A stretch of 44,301 nucleotides of DNA. Source: Clostridia bacterium (lineage in GTDB: Bacteria > Bacillota > Clostridia > UMGS1840). Shown piece by piece: positions 12,328 to 18,187 of the stretch. Each line of letters begins with the position of its first letter. The stretch's first letter is position 1. Both the position numbers and the translations under genes were made by a program. The notes under the pieces are model-generated. The model was given only the letters and a program-made list of their open reading frames with translations. It was not told the origin of the DNA and ran no database searches. Location of the stretch: positions 1 to 44,301 of the forward strand of contig JAGAKI010000030.1 in NCBI GenBank assembly GCA_017625695.1, given 5' to 3'.

Positions 12328-12357
12328 CAATTTTGATAAGGAGATGGATACTCCGCC

Positions 12358-12477
12358 GTCCGATTGCCGTTGGCACTCGGCAGCTCCGACGAACCACCCT
12401 TCGATGGTTCTCATCCATTTTGATAATACAAAAAAGCACCGACAGTCGTCGATGCTTTTTGGTGGAGGGAGATGGAT
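12358..12477. repeat. 120-bp direct repeat, distal copy, with tRNA-Tyr 3' end and terminator
   Basis: This block matches 12549-12668 with one mismatch in 120 bases. On the minus strand it starts with the tRNA-Tyr 3' terminal sequence (ATCCATCTCCCTCCACCA), followed by a terminator hairpin (12432-12459) and an imperfect GAACCA/TGGTTC hairpin. The tRNA body is absent, so the tRNA part is only a 3' fragment. A shorter third echo of the same tRNA end (GGAGATGGATACTC) lies at 12340-12353. Confidence 0.9.
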
Positions 12478-12548
12478 ACTCTGCGCTGCTTGATTTTTCG
12501 ACCGCCCTTGGCGGTTAGCGAAAACTCTTCGCTGCTCGAGACTTCGCA

Positions 12549-12668
12549 GTCCGATTGCCGTTGGCACTCGGCAGCTCCGACGAACCATCCTTCGATGGTT
12601 CTCATCCATTTTGATAATACAAAAAAGCACCGACAGTCGTCGATGCTTTTTGGTGGAGGGAGATGGAT
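12549..12668. repeat. 120-bp direct repeat, proximal copy, overlapping the intact tRNA-Tyr 3' end
   Basis: This is the partner of the 12358-12477 copy, with starts 191 bases apart. Its right end (12651-12668) is the last 18 bases of the intact tRNA-Tyr gene. Between the copies lies 71 bp of unique sequence. Such a tRNA-end duplication can be left by integration and loss of a mobile element, or by simple tandem duplication. Confidence 0.9.
12621..12650 (-). terminator. Terminator of the tRNA-Thr/tRNA-Tyr transcript
   Basis: Read on the minus strand, directly after the tRNA CCA end, AAAAGCATCGAC and GTCGGTGCTTTT form a 12-bp stem (one G-T pair) around a GACT loop, followed by a T run. It is duplicated in the distal repeat copy. 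Confidence 0.85.
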
Positions 12669-12899: not shown

Positions 12900-13020
12900 G
12901 CATTTTTTTTATTTTTCCGAGAAAAAGTTCCGAATGTCTGAAAACAGGCGGTTTTTTGGTGGAAATTTTCTGTTTCCGATGAAAAACAGATGCCATATTT
13001 CGACAAAATAGAATTTTACA

Positions 13021-13049
13021 TTGTTTTTTTGGATTACTTATGATATAAT
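13021..13049 (+). promoter_or_regulatory. Probable promoter of the TIR-NACHT gene
   Basis: TTGTTT (13021-13026) and a perfect TATAAT (13044-13049) are 17 bases apart. Transcription would start near 13056, inside the first hairpin of the array, giving a leader of ~230 bases before ATG 13284. A second TATAAT at 13227 lacks a recognisable -35. Confidence 0.6.
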
Positions 13050-13194
13050 GAATTCAACAAAGTTGAATTCAGCTAAATTCGCCAGAAGGCGAGCTAAATG
13101 TGCTAACGCACGCTAAATTACTTCGTAGCTAAATTGACCTATGGTCAGCTAATGGCGAATTTAATTTAGCTGTTTCGATAGAAACAATTTAGCT
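13050..13194 (+). repeat. Array of short hairpins separated by the octamer AGCTAAAT
   Basis: Six perfect small stem-loops of unrelated stem sequence lie in a row: GAATTCAAC/GTTGAATTC (13050-13070), TCGCC/GGCGA (13079-13092), GTGC/GCAC (13100-13111), TAC/GTA (13119-13127), TGACC/GGTCA (13135-13147) and TGTTTC/GAAACA (13171-13186). The first five are separated by AGCTAAAT or a one-base variant (13071, 13092, 13111, 13127, 13147). Two inverted copies, ATTTAGCT, flank the last hairpin (13164-13171, 13187-13194). GGCGAAT (13154-13160) can also pair back to ATTCGCC (13077-13083). No coding capacity is seen. It may be a structured leader RNA or a small palindromic mobile element. Confidence 0.85.
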
Positions 13195-13283
13195 AAAAGA
13201 GTGGCATCTAAATCGTTCGCTGATTTTATAATAATTTTATGCGATTGTCAATGAGCTGAACTATGGATTCGGAGGAACCGTCT

Positions 13284-16200
13284 ATGAATCACATCAATGA
13301 TTTTTTCATATCTCACCTGAGCGAAGATGGCGTTCTTGCCAATGCTCTGGCAGACTTGCTGCATACCATCAATCCCGACTGGCGGGTGTTTTTGGATTGC
13401 AGTGAAGAGCATCCTTTGGAGTCTCATGAGGATTGGTGTGCCCGTATGCTTCAGGAAGTGGCGTATTCCCGCTACCTTATTTTTGTGGCTTCCTCTGCGG
13501 AATATTTAAAAGACGGCAATGGCTGGCTCTATGAAGAGGTTTCCGCTTTTCAGAAATTGAAAGCTACCCGAAACCGACGGAATGCGGGAGACAGAACCTT
13601 AGGCTATTTTGGGATTTTGTTCGGAAAAATTGACTTTGAGCGGGAATTGTATTCTCATCCCAAATTAGGCAGTGACTACCGCAGAATCTATGACCAGCCG
13701 GAGCATCTGGTGTTAGAGGAAGGCGATACCATTTCTTCTGCGGCAGAGCGTATCCGAAACAAGATCAGAATTCTGACCGAATCTTCCGATTTGGGAACTG
13801 CGGCGGAACTTCTGGACAAGACCCGTCAGTTTGCGGAAGAAAAAAGACAGCAAGACCCTATGTTTGACGGGGCAGCTATTTGCGATGAGCTGTTACCCTT
13901 TTTAAAGGATGAGGACCATCGTCTGCTTCAGTTTTCTGATGTTTGCGATGCCATAGCGCATGGACACGTTGCCATTTTGGGCAACGAAGGGGGAAGCGGA
14001 AAAACTACTTTACTGACCAAACTGTTTTATCACTTTTCAGACAGCATCAATCTGAAACGAAATGGACCTTCTGACTGGATTCCCTTTTATGTGGATGCCA
14101 AAAACCTGGCAGCGGATAACTATTTGATTTTGCGGTATCTTGCCCGTCATTTATACGGAGACCGTACCGCTATGACCGACCGTTTTACCGGGGAGTCCAT
14201 TGGTGTTTTGGACCGTGAGTTTTCCATGGAAACCGAAAGCCCCAGATATCTTTTGTTAATTGACGGCTATAATGAAATTCCCCAGTTTTCTCTGGAGCTG
14301 TTTAACCGGGAATTGGAAGAATTTCTGCCCGGTGGTCGATACAAAAATGTCAGGGTAGTGATTGCAGGACGATATCTCAACGAAAACCTACTCCCCGAAC
14401 ATTTTTATACCCTGCGTCTGAATGAATTAAAAGAAGAAGTTATTATTGAATATCTTTCTGCCAACGGAGTCAATGTTCAGAAGTTAAGCCCGGCACTTTC
14501 CAAAATTCTGTCCATCCCTATGTATTTAAGACTGTATGCACAGACTGCGGCAGACCGTCAGATTCAGACTAAGGGAGAATTGCTTGGTCAGTTTGTGACC
14601 TGGCAACACGAAAAAGATACCTCCGGTGCCGAAAATGACGAACAAAAGGCACTGTTTGGCATATTGTTTCATCATCTTCTGCCCTTTGTGGCACATCGGA
14701 TGGTGATGACCGCCCAAACCCGTTCCGATTTTGTGATTACTGCACAGGAATTGGAAGACATCTTCTGTGATGTTCCCAAATTGTTTGGGGATACGGAATA
14801 TAAGCGATACTATGGAAAAGATTACCGGGACGCCTTGCGGTTGAGTCGTATGTTAGATTATGACGAGTTGGATTTATCCGATTTGGCAAGCGAATATTTT
14901 GTGCATACCTGTAAGCTGTTCCGAAAAAATGCAGAAAATGGTTACGAATTTATTCATCAGATTTACCGTGACTTTTTCTGTGCAAAATTTGTGGCAGAAG
15001 AGCTTTGCCGTGCGGCTTCTTCACAGGGGTGTCCCCATTCGCTGGAGCAAACCCGTCTGGAAGATGCGGTCAAAGAATTTGTTTGCGAACTGTTGCAGGA
15101 GGGAAGACCGTTCTTTGATGATAAAACCCTTTTGTGGGACTATTCCTGTAACGACACTTCCGTGTTGTTTCAGTTGCCTCATCTGATTCGTGCCCACCAA
15201 TGCGGGGACAACGGAATTCTGGTCTCCAATGCGGTGGAGCTGTTAAAATATGCCCGTCAGAACGATTTTTCCTCTGTGGATTTTTCGTATCTCAATCTGA
15301 CGGAGAGTAATCTGGTAACGGGAATCTTTTTCCGTCAGGACCAAAACGGCAGATATTCCGCCAATTTTCACGGAGCTACCATCCATCGGAACAATCTGTT
15401 TTCTGAGCATCATTTTGCACAGTTTCGTGGAGGTGCCGTAAAGGACGGAACCCTTGCGGTGATTGATGCCGACGGCATCTTAAAATTCTGGCAAAAAGAA
15501 GCCTATGCTATGGTTCCCAAAAAAGTGATTACCGGTGTGGATTACGAGGTTTCCCAGCTGTTGTTTTCCCGGTCAGGGGATGTGATATATGCCAGAACAG
15601 CACACGAAATTTTAGAAATTCCCATCCCGCAGGAGGCATACAGCAATGCCCGTCCCAAGCTTCTGTATGAAACCACCAAACGGCTTCGGAATATCCGCTT
15701 GGGAGAGGACGGAGAGATTTATTTTACCACTGCGTTTAACGCCTTTAACGAAAAACCTGTTTCCAATCCGGATGCACCGGATATTGTGGATTTTTATGGA
15801 CTGAATTCTGCGGCGGCAGTCAACAGTCAGCAAACCCGTCTTGCCTATGGAAATATTACCGGTTATCCCGGCTTGAAGCTGTATGATTTGAATCCCGAAA
15901 CCAAGGAATGGGAAGACCGGCGGATTGGCTTTTCCCGTCTGTTGGATTTGTTTATGAAAGAGTTTGAAGGGGCACTTCGGAAATTTAAGCTGTATATGAT
16001 ATTCCCGCATGATAATGCCCGAACCGCCAAACGGATTGAAACCCGTCGCAGCTATTTTAATCATCTGCAGCTCCGGTTTGAAAGTACCACCCACGACCAG
16101 GAGAAGGTACCGGAAAAAATTGCGGTACATGTGCTTCGTGACCTTACCGGATTCGGCATTGAGCTTCGGAACTATCAGCAGAAAAAGCTGGATTCCATTG

Positions 16201-18089
16201 TGAAAAAATATGAGGGGATTATCTTAAAAGAAAAAGCGGAAAATTTTCTTTTGTTCTTTTTGTCAGGCAGAAAAATCACGGCGTTGGATTTCAAACCCGG
16301 CACCGATACGCTGCTGGTGTCCTGTATGAATCAGTTTGTGGACGATACCTACGCTCACAGTTTGGTATTGGAATTGGATACCAATACCCTTGCGACCCGT
16401 TTTGTGACTCGTTTTTCCGGTCACTTGCAGCCACACGCCTTTTATTCCGACGGAAAAATTGTTGTCAACGGAGATGTTGCTATGACCGTTTCCGACGAGC
16501 ATAACAGTAACCTGATGAGGGTGGACTGTTATCCCAATAAAGTGGAAAAATTTCTGCATCAGAAAGGGACCGACTTTTTCTATGCCATAGCACCTCACGT
16601 GATTTACAGTTTTTCGGAAAACGGATGCTGCACAGGCAGTGTCAACAACTTTTTCCGAACCGTTGAATTGTATTTTTGTGTGGATGATCAGGAACATCCC
16701 TATCTGATTCGCCGGACGGATTATCTTCGTACCCGAAATCAGCCGGATAACCTCAAATATGTACTGGATATGGTTTCCTTGGAGTACCGAAGAATTTCCG
16801 GTCCGCTGTTTAAACGTGCCAATTTCTTAAATACGGTAGTCATTGGCGACAAATCCTTTAAAATGTGTACCGACAAGTTGACCACCTTCTGCCGGGAACT
16901 GCGGACGGATTCTTTGGAAATTTGCTATAAGCTGTTTGTCTGCGGTTGCGATTTTCGTGAGGTAAAAGGGAACATCCAAAATTCCCGTGACCTGCGTCTG
17001 CTGTCCCGCTTTGGGGGTCTGACGGAGGACTATACGGCAGAGGAATGTTTGGTATTGCCGGAGATTGGCTCGTTTGTTCCCTCCGAAGTTTTGTTTGCGG
17101 TGTTAGAAGAGGAAGAATGCCATTCCCTGTTTTCCCACGTCCCCGATACCCGCCTGACCCTTGCCAATCTTTATAAGGAAGCACAGGGCGGCGACAATAT
17201 GTATTCCATTAAAATCTGGCGCAAGATCCATATGGATTCTTATTCCAAACAGGGATTGGAAGCAGCCGACTATTCGATTCTGGAATGGGTGAACCGGCTG
17301 ATGTTTGCCACTCCGAAGATGATTACCAACTTAATTACGGCAGGCCTGATTGAAGCACCTGCAAGCTACGGAGCAGGAGAAAAGAACATCGAAAAACGGA
17401 TGTTCAAAGTTCTTCACGCTTCTTACCGGCTTCTGTGCCGGTATGTTTTCTACCATATTCCTACCAAAGTTCAGCATGGGACGATTTATACCACCTCAAA
17501 AACCTTCGGGGCAAATCTTCTGAGAAAAACCACCGATGAAGAGGTGTTTGTTCAGGAAAACTATGCGGCATTGGATACGGTGGAAACCAACCGGATTCTC
17601 AGCTTGAATCAATGGCTTTGCACCGAGCTTGCCCGCTATGGAAAACCGCCGTTCCGCTATGGACTCAGAACCCGTTTTGATGCGGCAAATCACTTTAACG
17701 GCAGAGCCAAAATTCACGGATATCTGAAATTCGGGGAACAGGCACTTTTCGCACAGTCTTTCCGTCTTGGGGATTCGGATTCCAACGAAGCGGATATTGC
17801 GGAAAAAGTGAGCAGAATGGCGTTGGTTGCCACACATTATCAGCATTTGACCCGTGACGGAATGATTCCCGAACCGCTGGAGCGTCCACCGGTGCTGGTT
17901 CTCATCGGGGAATCCTGTGAGCATTGTTTTGCCATTGCCCGTCTGGTAGAAGCGGTGGCACCCCATATCCGGAAGCTGTTTACCTATGACACGTTGCTGA
18001 CTGACCCGGAAGCTGCCGGGGACGGCAACTACTTTGAACTGGTCAGCGGGGAACCCCGGCGTGTCCGTTTATCCGATATCATTTCATAA
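13284..18089 (+). CDS. TIR-NACHT (STAND, NLR-like) protein, probable anti-phage sensor
   Basis: This is a 1601-residue protein. ATG 13284 is chosen because GGAGG (13271-13275) lies 8 bases upstream. Residues 1-~140 form a TIR domain (NDFFISHLSEDG, WRVFLDCS, YLIFVASSAEYL, WLYEEVSAF with the probable catalytic Glu at 84 or 85). A NACHT-type NTPase follows: Walker A GNEGGSGKTT (233-242, K240), Walker B YLLLIDGYNEIP (322-333), VRVVIAGRY, and the helical-domain motif FIHQIYRDFF (~556). Residues ~665-700 resemble pentapeptide repeats and ~700-1300 a degenerate beta-propeller, the likely sensor. The last ~290 residues look like a winged helix (DYSILEWVNRLMFATPKMITNLI) plus an alpha/beta domain (VLVLIGESCEHCF). 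TIR domains of this class degrade or cyclise NAD+; NACHT proteins oligomerise on sensing phage. The system seems to be one gene, next to tRNA genes. Confidence 0.9.
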   Translation: MNHINDFFISHLSEDGVLANALADLLHTINPDWRVFLDCSEEHPLESHEDWCARMLQEVAYSRYLIFVASSAEYLKDGNGWLYEEVSAFQKLKATRNRRNAGDRTLGYFGILFGKIDFERELYSHPKLGSDYRRIYDQPEHLVLEEGDTISSAAERIRNKIRILTESSDLGTAAELLDKTRQFAEEKRQQDPMFDGAAICDELLPFLKDEDHRLLQFSDVCDAIAHGHVAILGNEGGSGKTTLLTKLFYHFSDSINLKRNGPSDWIPFYVDAKNLAADNYLILRYLARHLYGDRTAMTDRFTGESIGVLDREFSMETESPRYLLLIDGYNEIPQFSLELFNRELEEFLPGGRYKNVRVVIAGRYLNENLLPEHFYTLRLNELKEEVIIEYLSANGVNVQKLSPALSKILSIPMYLRLYAQTAADRQIQTKGELLGQFVTWQHEKDTSGAENDEQKALFGILFHHLLPFVAHRMVMTAQTRSDFVITAQELEDIFCDVPKLFGDTEYKRYYGKDYRDALRLSRMLDYDELDLSDLASEYFVHTCKLFRKNAENGYEFIHQIYRDFFCAKFVAEELCRAASSQGCPHSLEQTRLEDAVKEFVCELLQEGRPFFDDKTLLWDYSCNDTSVLFQLPHLIRAHQCGDNGILVSNAVELLKYARQNDFSSVDFSYLNLTESNLVTGIFFRQDQNGRYSANFHGATIHRNNLFSEHHFAQFRGGAVKDGTLAVIDADGILKFWQKEAYAMVPKKVITGVDYEVSQLLFSRSGDVIYARTAHEILEIPIPQEAYSNARPKLLYETTKRLRNIRLGEDGEIYFTTAFNAFNEKPVSNPDAPDIVDFYGLNSAAAVNSQQTRLAYGNITGYPGLKLYDLNPETKEWEDRRIGFSRLLDLFMKEFEGALRKFKLYMIFPHDNARTAKRIETRRSYFNHLQLRFESTTHDQEKVPEKIAVHVLRDLTGFGIELRNYQQKKLDSIVKKYEGIILKEKAENFLLFFLSGRKITALDFKPGTDTLLVSCMNQFVDDTYAHSLVLELDTNTLATRFVTRFSGHLQPHAFYSDGKIVVNGDVAMTVSDEHNSNLMRVDCYPNKVEKFLHQKGTDFFYAIAPHVIYSFSENGCCTGSVNNFFRTVELYFCVDDQEHPYLIRRTDYLRTRNQPDNLKYVLDMVSLEYRRISGPLFKRANFLNTVVIGDKSFKMCTDKLTTFCRELRTDSLEICYKLFVCGCDFREVKGNIQNSRDLRLLSRFGGLTEDYTAEECLVLPEIGSFVPSEVLFAVLEEEECHSLFSHVPDTRLTLANLYKEAQGGDNMYSIKIWRKIHMDSYSKQGLEAADYSILEWVNRLMFATPKMITNLITAGLIEAPASYGAGEKNIEKRMFKVLHASYRLLCRYVFYHIPTKVQHGTIYTTSKTFGANLLRKTTDEEVFVQENYAALDTVETNRILSLNQWLCTELARYGKPPFRYGLRTRFDAANHFNGRAKIHGYLKFGEQALFAQSFRLGDSDSNEADIAEKVSRMALVATHYQHLTRDGMIPEPLERPPVLVLIGESCEHCFAIARLVEAVAPHIRKLFTYDTLLTDPEAAGDGNYFELVSGEPRRVRLSDIIS

Positions 18090-18187
18090 TTTTTGATCAA
18101 AAATCCGATTCTTTTGTTGTTTGGGTTATATCCGGCACTGTTACGGGACAGAATAATAAGACAACGTTCAGAAAAGAGAATCGGAAT

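Follow-up and report, generated by a model that had tools for sequence, protein, structure and literature searches.

Introduction

Several groups of small bacterial elements resemble the locus described here. Among them are the 23S rRNA intervening sequences, small elements located in a stable RNA gene and bearing a gene of the PF05635 type; no function is on record for the S23/IVP protein family, and in Coxiella burnetii three GACAGAT heptamers precede such a gene (PMC4990558). REP/REPIN elements with their RAYT transposases are dispersed, non-autonomous, intergenic and hairpin-forming, and are likely mobilised in trans (PMC3116915). Integron gene cassettes carry single passenger genes with a shared end sequence and are stacked in order behind a fixed site and a promoter. 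Streptococcus BOX elements are modular, dispersed, intergenic and structured, with few long modules of fixed sequence. The SDR repeats of Nostoc, which Elhai and colleagues reportedly described in 2008, are said to be tiny mobile repeats of 21-27 nt with a single hairpin and compensated stems, often lying within heptamer repeats.

We analysed an array of hairpins in a window of 44,301 nt, the whole stretch of DNA under study, on contig JAGAKI010000030.1 of a Clostridia bacterium (GCA_017625695.1). Comparison between species indicates that the array is very probably a short, non-autonomous copy in a family of mobile cassettes. This family shares a small size and a PF05635-type gene with the 23S rRNA intervening sequences, but those lie inside rRNA and are cut out by RNase III, whereas the cassettes here stand behind promoters or tRNA ends and have a hairpin array, passenger genes and many short copies without a gene. 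The family was not assigned to the intervening sequences, since its copies follow promoters, tRNAs and other genes, outside the 23S rRNA helix. The traits of REPINs listed above are shared, but a REPIN has two REP palindromes per unit and lacks a linker-hairpin array, a PF05635 gene and targeting of promoters or tRNA ends, and Y1 transposase was inconsistent among the array-bearing genomes here. Single passengers, a shared end, ordered stacking and the position behind a promoter recall integron cassettes; however, the cassettes here have many separate target sites per genome and a large structure on the 5' side, and their shared end is not the structured part. No integron integrase gene was seen in those flanks of copies that were read. 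SDR repeats are likewise tiny and mobile with compensated stems, but no gene or passenger is described in them, and BOX elements, similar in their modular and dispersed nature, have neither the linker-hairpin design nor a linked PF05635 gene. A search of open-licence papers found no description of the element, and in that literature the class of tiny mobile elements to which it belongs is apparently undescribed.

Results

The array in the window

Direct reading confirmed the window array, with six stem-loops at 13049-13186 whose stems, perfect as the initial annotation had stated, measure 3 to 10 bp. Its folding energy was -55.1 kcal/mol, compared with -34.4 +/- 3.5 in shuffles (z = -5.95), and 0/200 shuffles folded as well. 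The array is real, and a chance fold is ruled out.

All features of the copy lie on the forward strand. The promoter at 13021..13050 has a -35 hexamer TTGTTT (13021-13026), a 17-bp spacer and an extended -10 element, TGATATAAT, which ends at 13049 and is followed by G at 13050; we read this promoter as a probable target site, outside the element proper. Hairpin 0 (13049..13071, 10-bp stem) is the first structure of the element and overlaps the TATAAT box (13044-13049) by its last base; this hairpin is also present behind other promoters. It is followed by linker 1 (13072..13078), which is GCTAAAT and invariant in 32 copies, and by hairpin 1 (13079..13092; TCGCC-AGAA-GGCGA, 5 bp). Linkers 2 (13093..13099), 3 (13112..13118) and 4 (13128..13134), also GCTAAAT, each precede a hairpin with double changes between copies: hairpin 2 (13100..13111; GTGC-TAAC-GCAC, 4 bp) in 4/4 pairs, hairpin 3 (13119..13127; TAC-TTC-GTA, 3 bp) in 2/3 pairs and hairpin 4 (13135..13147; TGACC-TAT-GGTCA, 5 bp) in 3/5 pairs. 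Five linker copies had been annotated; those at 13072, 13093, 13112 and 13128 are exact, but at 13148 only GCTAA is present. This begins the centre (13148..13163), continues as TGGCGAATTTA and forms an inverted repeat with 13074-13084, that is, linker 1 and the 5' arm of hairpin 1. Both inverted linkers noted at the array end were found again: ATTTAGC at 13164..13170, a partner of a left linker in the consensus fold, and ATTTAGCT at 13187..13194, which contains ATTTAGC at 13187. Between them lies hairpin 5 (13171..13186; TGTTTC-GATA-GAAACA, 6 bp), with double changes in 4/6 pairs.

The feature extends past 13194 to 13232, because GGCATCTAAATCGTTCGCTGATTTTATAAT at 13203..13232 is the conserved 3' end common to other copies of the promoter type; it stands behind arrays and passenger genes in several genomes, and the reversed control gave none. 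Compared with alignment A1, the window copy does not have hairpins 6 and 7 of complete copies, nor does it have a PF05635 gene.

The window copy sits between the promoter and a neighbouring gene (13263..18089, forward strand, 1608 aa) that is outside the element. This gene had been annotated as TIR-NACHT; we found no more than a TIR_2 match below threshold and, by eye, a Walker A motif, leaving NACHT unconfirmed, and PADLOC gave no match for it. A 3' end of the element was looked for behind this gene and none was found. In four genomes of the same genus a LytR-family gene comes after the tRNA pair, and in the own genome the stretch 12917-18187, with promoter, array and 1608-aa gene, lies between the two; the four congeners have neither array nor gene, the whole 5.3-kb stretch being missing. 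Beside the tRNA pair, at window positions 12356-12660, a stretch of about 200 bp is partly repeated (GATGGATACTC...GATTGCCGTTGGCACTCGGCAGCTCCGACGAACCA) and resembles copied tRNA surroundings.

Copies in the genome and in the class

The initial annotation had proposed a search of the genome and its relatives for further arrays, and such arrays were found. In the own assembly (1.97 Mb, 84 contigs) a DNA search gave 16 matches at E <= 0.001, two of which, both on contig C21, were parts of one array; there are about 16 dispersed copies in this genome. The pattern GCTAAAT-N(4-34)-GCTAAAT-N(4-34)-GCTAAAT matched the genome 35 times, compared with 0 for the reversed control. Among relatives, 10/60 matched, and a covariance model built from the copies found the family in 42/391 genomes of the class, or in 22/318 when only the better assemblies were counted. 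By their records, the relatives carrying the gene are Clostridia and Oscillospiraceae, and most come from herbivore guts. In Rfam release 15 no family covered the array (best match 25.1 bits, threshold 45), and gathering thresholds were reached by the two tRNAs only. Phage records searched with the array DNA gave no match; one human-gut phage contig has a tRNA, a related array and a PF05635 gene.

Fold, covariation and exchange of hairpins

In complete copies a centre separates two arms: the left one has four hairpins and GCTAAAT linkers, the right one three hairpins and ATTTAGC linkers. Across 32 distinct full copies the stems were 95.8% paired, and 18 pairs had changes on both sides (192 cells, compared with 71.5 in shuffles); the stems are therefore under selection. 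The covariation score was 0.443, compared with at most 0.121 when the partners were slid. Pairing was thus maintained through double changes between homologous arrays, as the proposed check of stem covariation had sought. With further arrays present and their stems still paired, both results that were to refute the initial annotation failed to appear. In the unconstrained consensus fold the arms nest, with linker 1 paired to the last inverted linker and linkers 2 and 3 to the inner ones, and the hairpins branch off; the linkers and their inverted copies would thereby pair into a branched rod. The linker pairing lies outside the covariation evidence because the linkers hardly vary.

The hairpins had been described as unrelated in sequence. 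This holds inside a single copy, but between copies they are homologous hairpin for hairpin and are exchanged as modules, for example GTGCTAACGCAC versus TGAACAAGTTCA at position 2. The centre complements linker 1 and the 5' arm of hairpin 1, and, read by eye, it tracks the differing hairpin 1 in other families (L067, L072, L106, L122). Watson-Crick pairs filled 977/1015 stem cells; the exceptions included 17 G-T and 11 A-C cells, and since these are nearly equal, no selection for one RNA strand is visible. Hairpin 6 retains a G/A-rich internal loop. In this hairpin (A1 columns 131-150), GCGAAGC, known as an unusually stable DNA mini-hairpin, is often held inside conserved G/A mismatches.

Target sites and unoccupied junctions

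Target sites were counted for 65 distinct GCTAAAT arrays with enough left flank. The arrays stood behind TGNTANAAT with a -35 hexamer starting TTG in 23/65 cases, and the spacer was exactly 17 bp at 23/23 of these sites, under a rule that allowed 16 to 18; a looser promoter rule was passed by 8/400 random positions. A further 13/65 lay 33-50 nt behind a tRNA, the gap being hairpin 0. By the automatic rule 29/65 fell in neither class, some of which were seen by eye to follow tmRNA, 5S rRNA, terminators or stop codons. At four loci (L019, L021, L045, L050) we noted a third type of site, in which there is no -10 box and a GC-rich hairpin 0 lies no more than about 10 nt behind TTGACA.

The cassettes have a fixed orientation, directly behind the extended -10 box or the CCA end of the tRNA. 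In copies of the tRNA type, hairpin 0 resembles a terminator stem and is nearly identical behind tRNA-Pro, tRNA-Met and tRNA-Lys; it therefore belongs to the element. At the tRNA-Pro junction the own genome reads GACCA-element-AAGTCA-CAAAAAAAGCGTACTG, and the related genome G002 reads GACCA-AACAAAAAAGCGTACTG, unoccupied. At tRNA-Met, the GGACACC...GGTGT terminator directly follows CCA in G002, and its counterpart in the own genome stands behind the element. The promoter on contig C21 is followed by a GCTAAAT array in the own genome, in G001 by a GCGATAT array whose 3' end is of the same kind, and by no array in G003 and G004, where the promoter is present; the downstream genes differ between species, and this is therefore a shared promoter and not a strict empty site. 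Tandem stacks occur at one tRNA (L160, and L164 with passenger genes). TATAAT or CCA recurs at the element ends; the left and right versions often differ, for which reason a model of target-site duplication was set aside.

Gene-bearing copies and conserved 3' ends

In long copies an ORF of about 119 aa lies no more than about 30 nt downstream of the array. It matches PF05635 (E 3.5e-29), the 23S rRNA intervening-sequence protein, a four-helix bundle; among solved structures its nearest chains are 2rld (5e-32) and, with a weak match, 2gsc (0.0026). The own genome has one such copy, on contig C61. Under a strict rule, at least three linker-bounded hairpins lay directly upstream of 46/72 PF05635 loci in Clostridia, compared with 1/613 controls. 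After the PF05635 gene comes a variable passenger ORF (NUDIX, DUF4288, others without a match, and in another case a pyrophosphatase-like ORF just below the cut-off), and then a conserved 3' end of about 30 nt. Short copies consist of the array and the 3' end only. As in elements of the MITE type, the array and 3' end of the short copy are common to gene-bearing copies, and the short copies resemble long ones that have lost their interior.

There are two recurrent 3' ends, GGCATCTAAATCGTTCACTGATTYTATAAT and YTGCATCTATTATGAACGTGAAAGCCA. They are also found after passenger genes and after arrays built on other linkers (GCGATAT, ATGAAAT, GTTATATT/GTTATGA, AATTCAT). It is these ends, more than the linker, that define the mobile unit. 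The GCGATAT array family occurs in the same genus with the same promoters, tRNAs and kind of 3' end (L155, L149, right flank of L013). At L166 (genome G004, contig C9) a tRNA-linked element with a different, larger fold terminates in the same TTGCATCTATTATGAACGTGAAAGCCA. A small contig that appears foreign to its genome (G000, contig C15, L137) has two PF05635 genes; a hairpin array with the linker CTTCAC/GTGAAG precedes each of them, in one case directly after tRNA-Ser.

Discussion

The window array is most likely a site-specific mobile element. The initial annotation had offered a hairpin-rich mobile element as its alternative reading, and dispersed copies in many genomes, unoccupied junctions and tandem stacking now bear this out. 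We suggest a process in which the array would fold as a single strand into the branched rod, the rod would be recognised by the four-helix-bundle protein or by a mobilising machinery, and short copies would be mobilised in trans. The terminator-like 5' hairpin of the tRNA type, together with 3' ends that repeat TATAAT or CCA, would allow insertion to spare the host gene. We lean slightly towards DNA as the folded form, although the balance with RNA is close.

None of the copies was found to contain a recombinase or transposase. Among 15 array-bearing genomes checked (one of which, G003, had related sequences and no GCTAAAT array by the covariance model), RVT_1 was not found in 11, including G006 at 98% completeness, and Y1_Tnp was not found in 4, among which G577 and G647 each have at least seven copies. 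Both are inconsistent, and therefore neither is obligate unless it was missed or lost. A diversity-generating retroelement was rejected on the same absence of RVT_1 from 11/15 genomes and because none stood beside the arrays read. A MITE of a DDE transposon was also rejected, since the two ends differ and the TATAAT/CCA repeats are often unequal on the left and right.

The nearest competing explanation, which we hold to be possible though clearly the less probable, is a retro-cassette in which the array RNA is the leader of the four-helix-bundle mRNA and a scaffold for an Avd-related protein, with a reverse transcriptase acting in trans. PF05635 proteins are considered homologues of Avd, which serves diversity-generating retroelements as an accessory protein (PMC10053308). 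The array stands behind a promoter and directly upstream of the PF05635 gene, two reverse transcriptases are present in the own genome, and the G/A-rich internal loop of hairpin 6 is preserved. However, in addition to the genomes in which RVT_1 was not found, the near-equal G-T and A-C exceptions (17 and 11 in 1015 cells) give no sign of selection on one RNA strand, the 5' boundary immediately follows the -10 box, ahead of the position where the transcript should start, and we noted none of the 5'-truncated copies that are typical of reverse transcription.

Single-strand DNA transposition as in IS200/IS605 elements or REPINs, in which a Y1 transposase would act on the short copies in trans, would agree with the hairpins at the left end, the fixed target sequence in the left flank, the oriented insertion with no clear target duplication and the almost purely Watson-Crick stems (977/1015 cells). 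We consider this unlikely, since Y1_Tnp is missing in 4/15 array-bearing genomes, the 3' end of about 30 nt has no hairpin, the left end alone being so equipped, and the target is a whole promoter or tRNA end in place of a tetra- or pentanucleotide.

The initial annotation favoured a switchable leader of an immune-type gene. Such a leader would be an attenuator or phage sensor with alternative folds. The array does lie between a good promoter and the start codon of the TIR/P-loop gene, it could be part of a transcript, and there is more than one inverted partner for the left linkers. However, elsewhere copies stand before unrelated genes or after tRNAs, two of the seven hairpins are gone from the window copy, and the four congeners without both show no conserved pairing of array and gene. 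The tie to an immune gene is thus unsupported and a leader of this kind very unlikely; because other copies precede unrelated genes, the link of the array with the TIR/P-loop gene looks incidental. A CRISPR-like or other spacer-acquiring array can practically be dismissed, for although a short constant unit alternates with a variable one, each variable unit is a palindrome that is homologous to the corresponding hairpin of other genomes, the changes between them being compensated, and the constant unit is inverted in the right arm.

A site-specific mobile cassette, the reading we prefer, ties PF05635 (S23/IVP) to a mobile structured element with passengers and sharp target sites, and the function of S23/IVP therefore becomes testable. 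Such an element would place single genes under existing promoters or behind tRNAs with little harm to the host, and would account for many repeats in the genomes of gut Clostridia. Hairpin arrays might also pass as CRISPR arrays in automatic searches; a figure legend of a CRISPR discovery study names '23S rRNA IVP' among associated domains (PMC10910872).

PF05635 genes elsewhere in the phylum had no such hairpins where they were read; upstream short direct repeats or complementary flanks beyond those of shuffles were found for 21/28. Repeats and complements were also seen by eye in examples from Nostoc, Treponema and Monoglobus, and one Nostoc PF05635 gene is flanked by heptamer repeats. Repeats with complements at the ends could, we infer, unite PF05635 elements, and the hairpin array would then be their elaborated form. 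It is conceivable, if somewhat short of probable, that PF05635 proteins of gut Clostridia, other Bacillota, cyanobacteria and spirochaetes mark one large undescribed class of mobile cassettes, whose ends would be short repeats and complements, interleaved with hairpins in gut Clostridia, and which would enter the melting region of promoters and the ends of stable-RNA genes, carrying passengers. Some PF05635 genes have flanks that were read by eye as RNase P RNA (L196) or 23S rRNA (L187, L193, L198, L199). In genome G000, a phage-like region on contig C7 (L136, L138) has a diversity-generating retroelement, comprising a reverse transcriptase, a weak match to PF05635 (Avd type) and a target protein whose end is copied.
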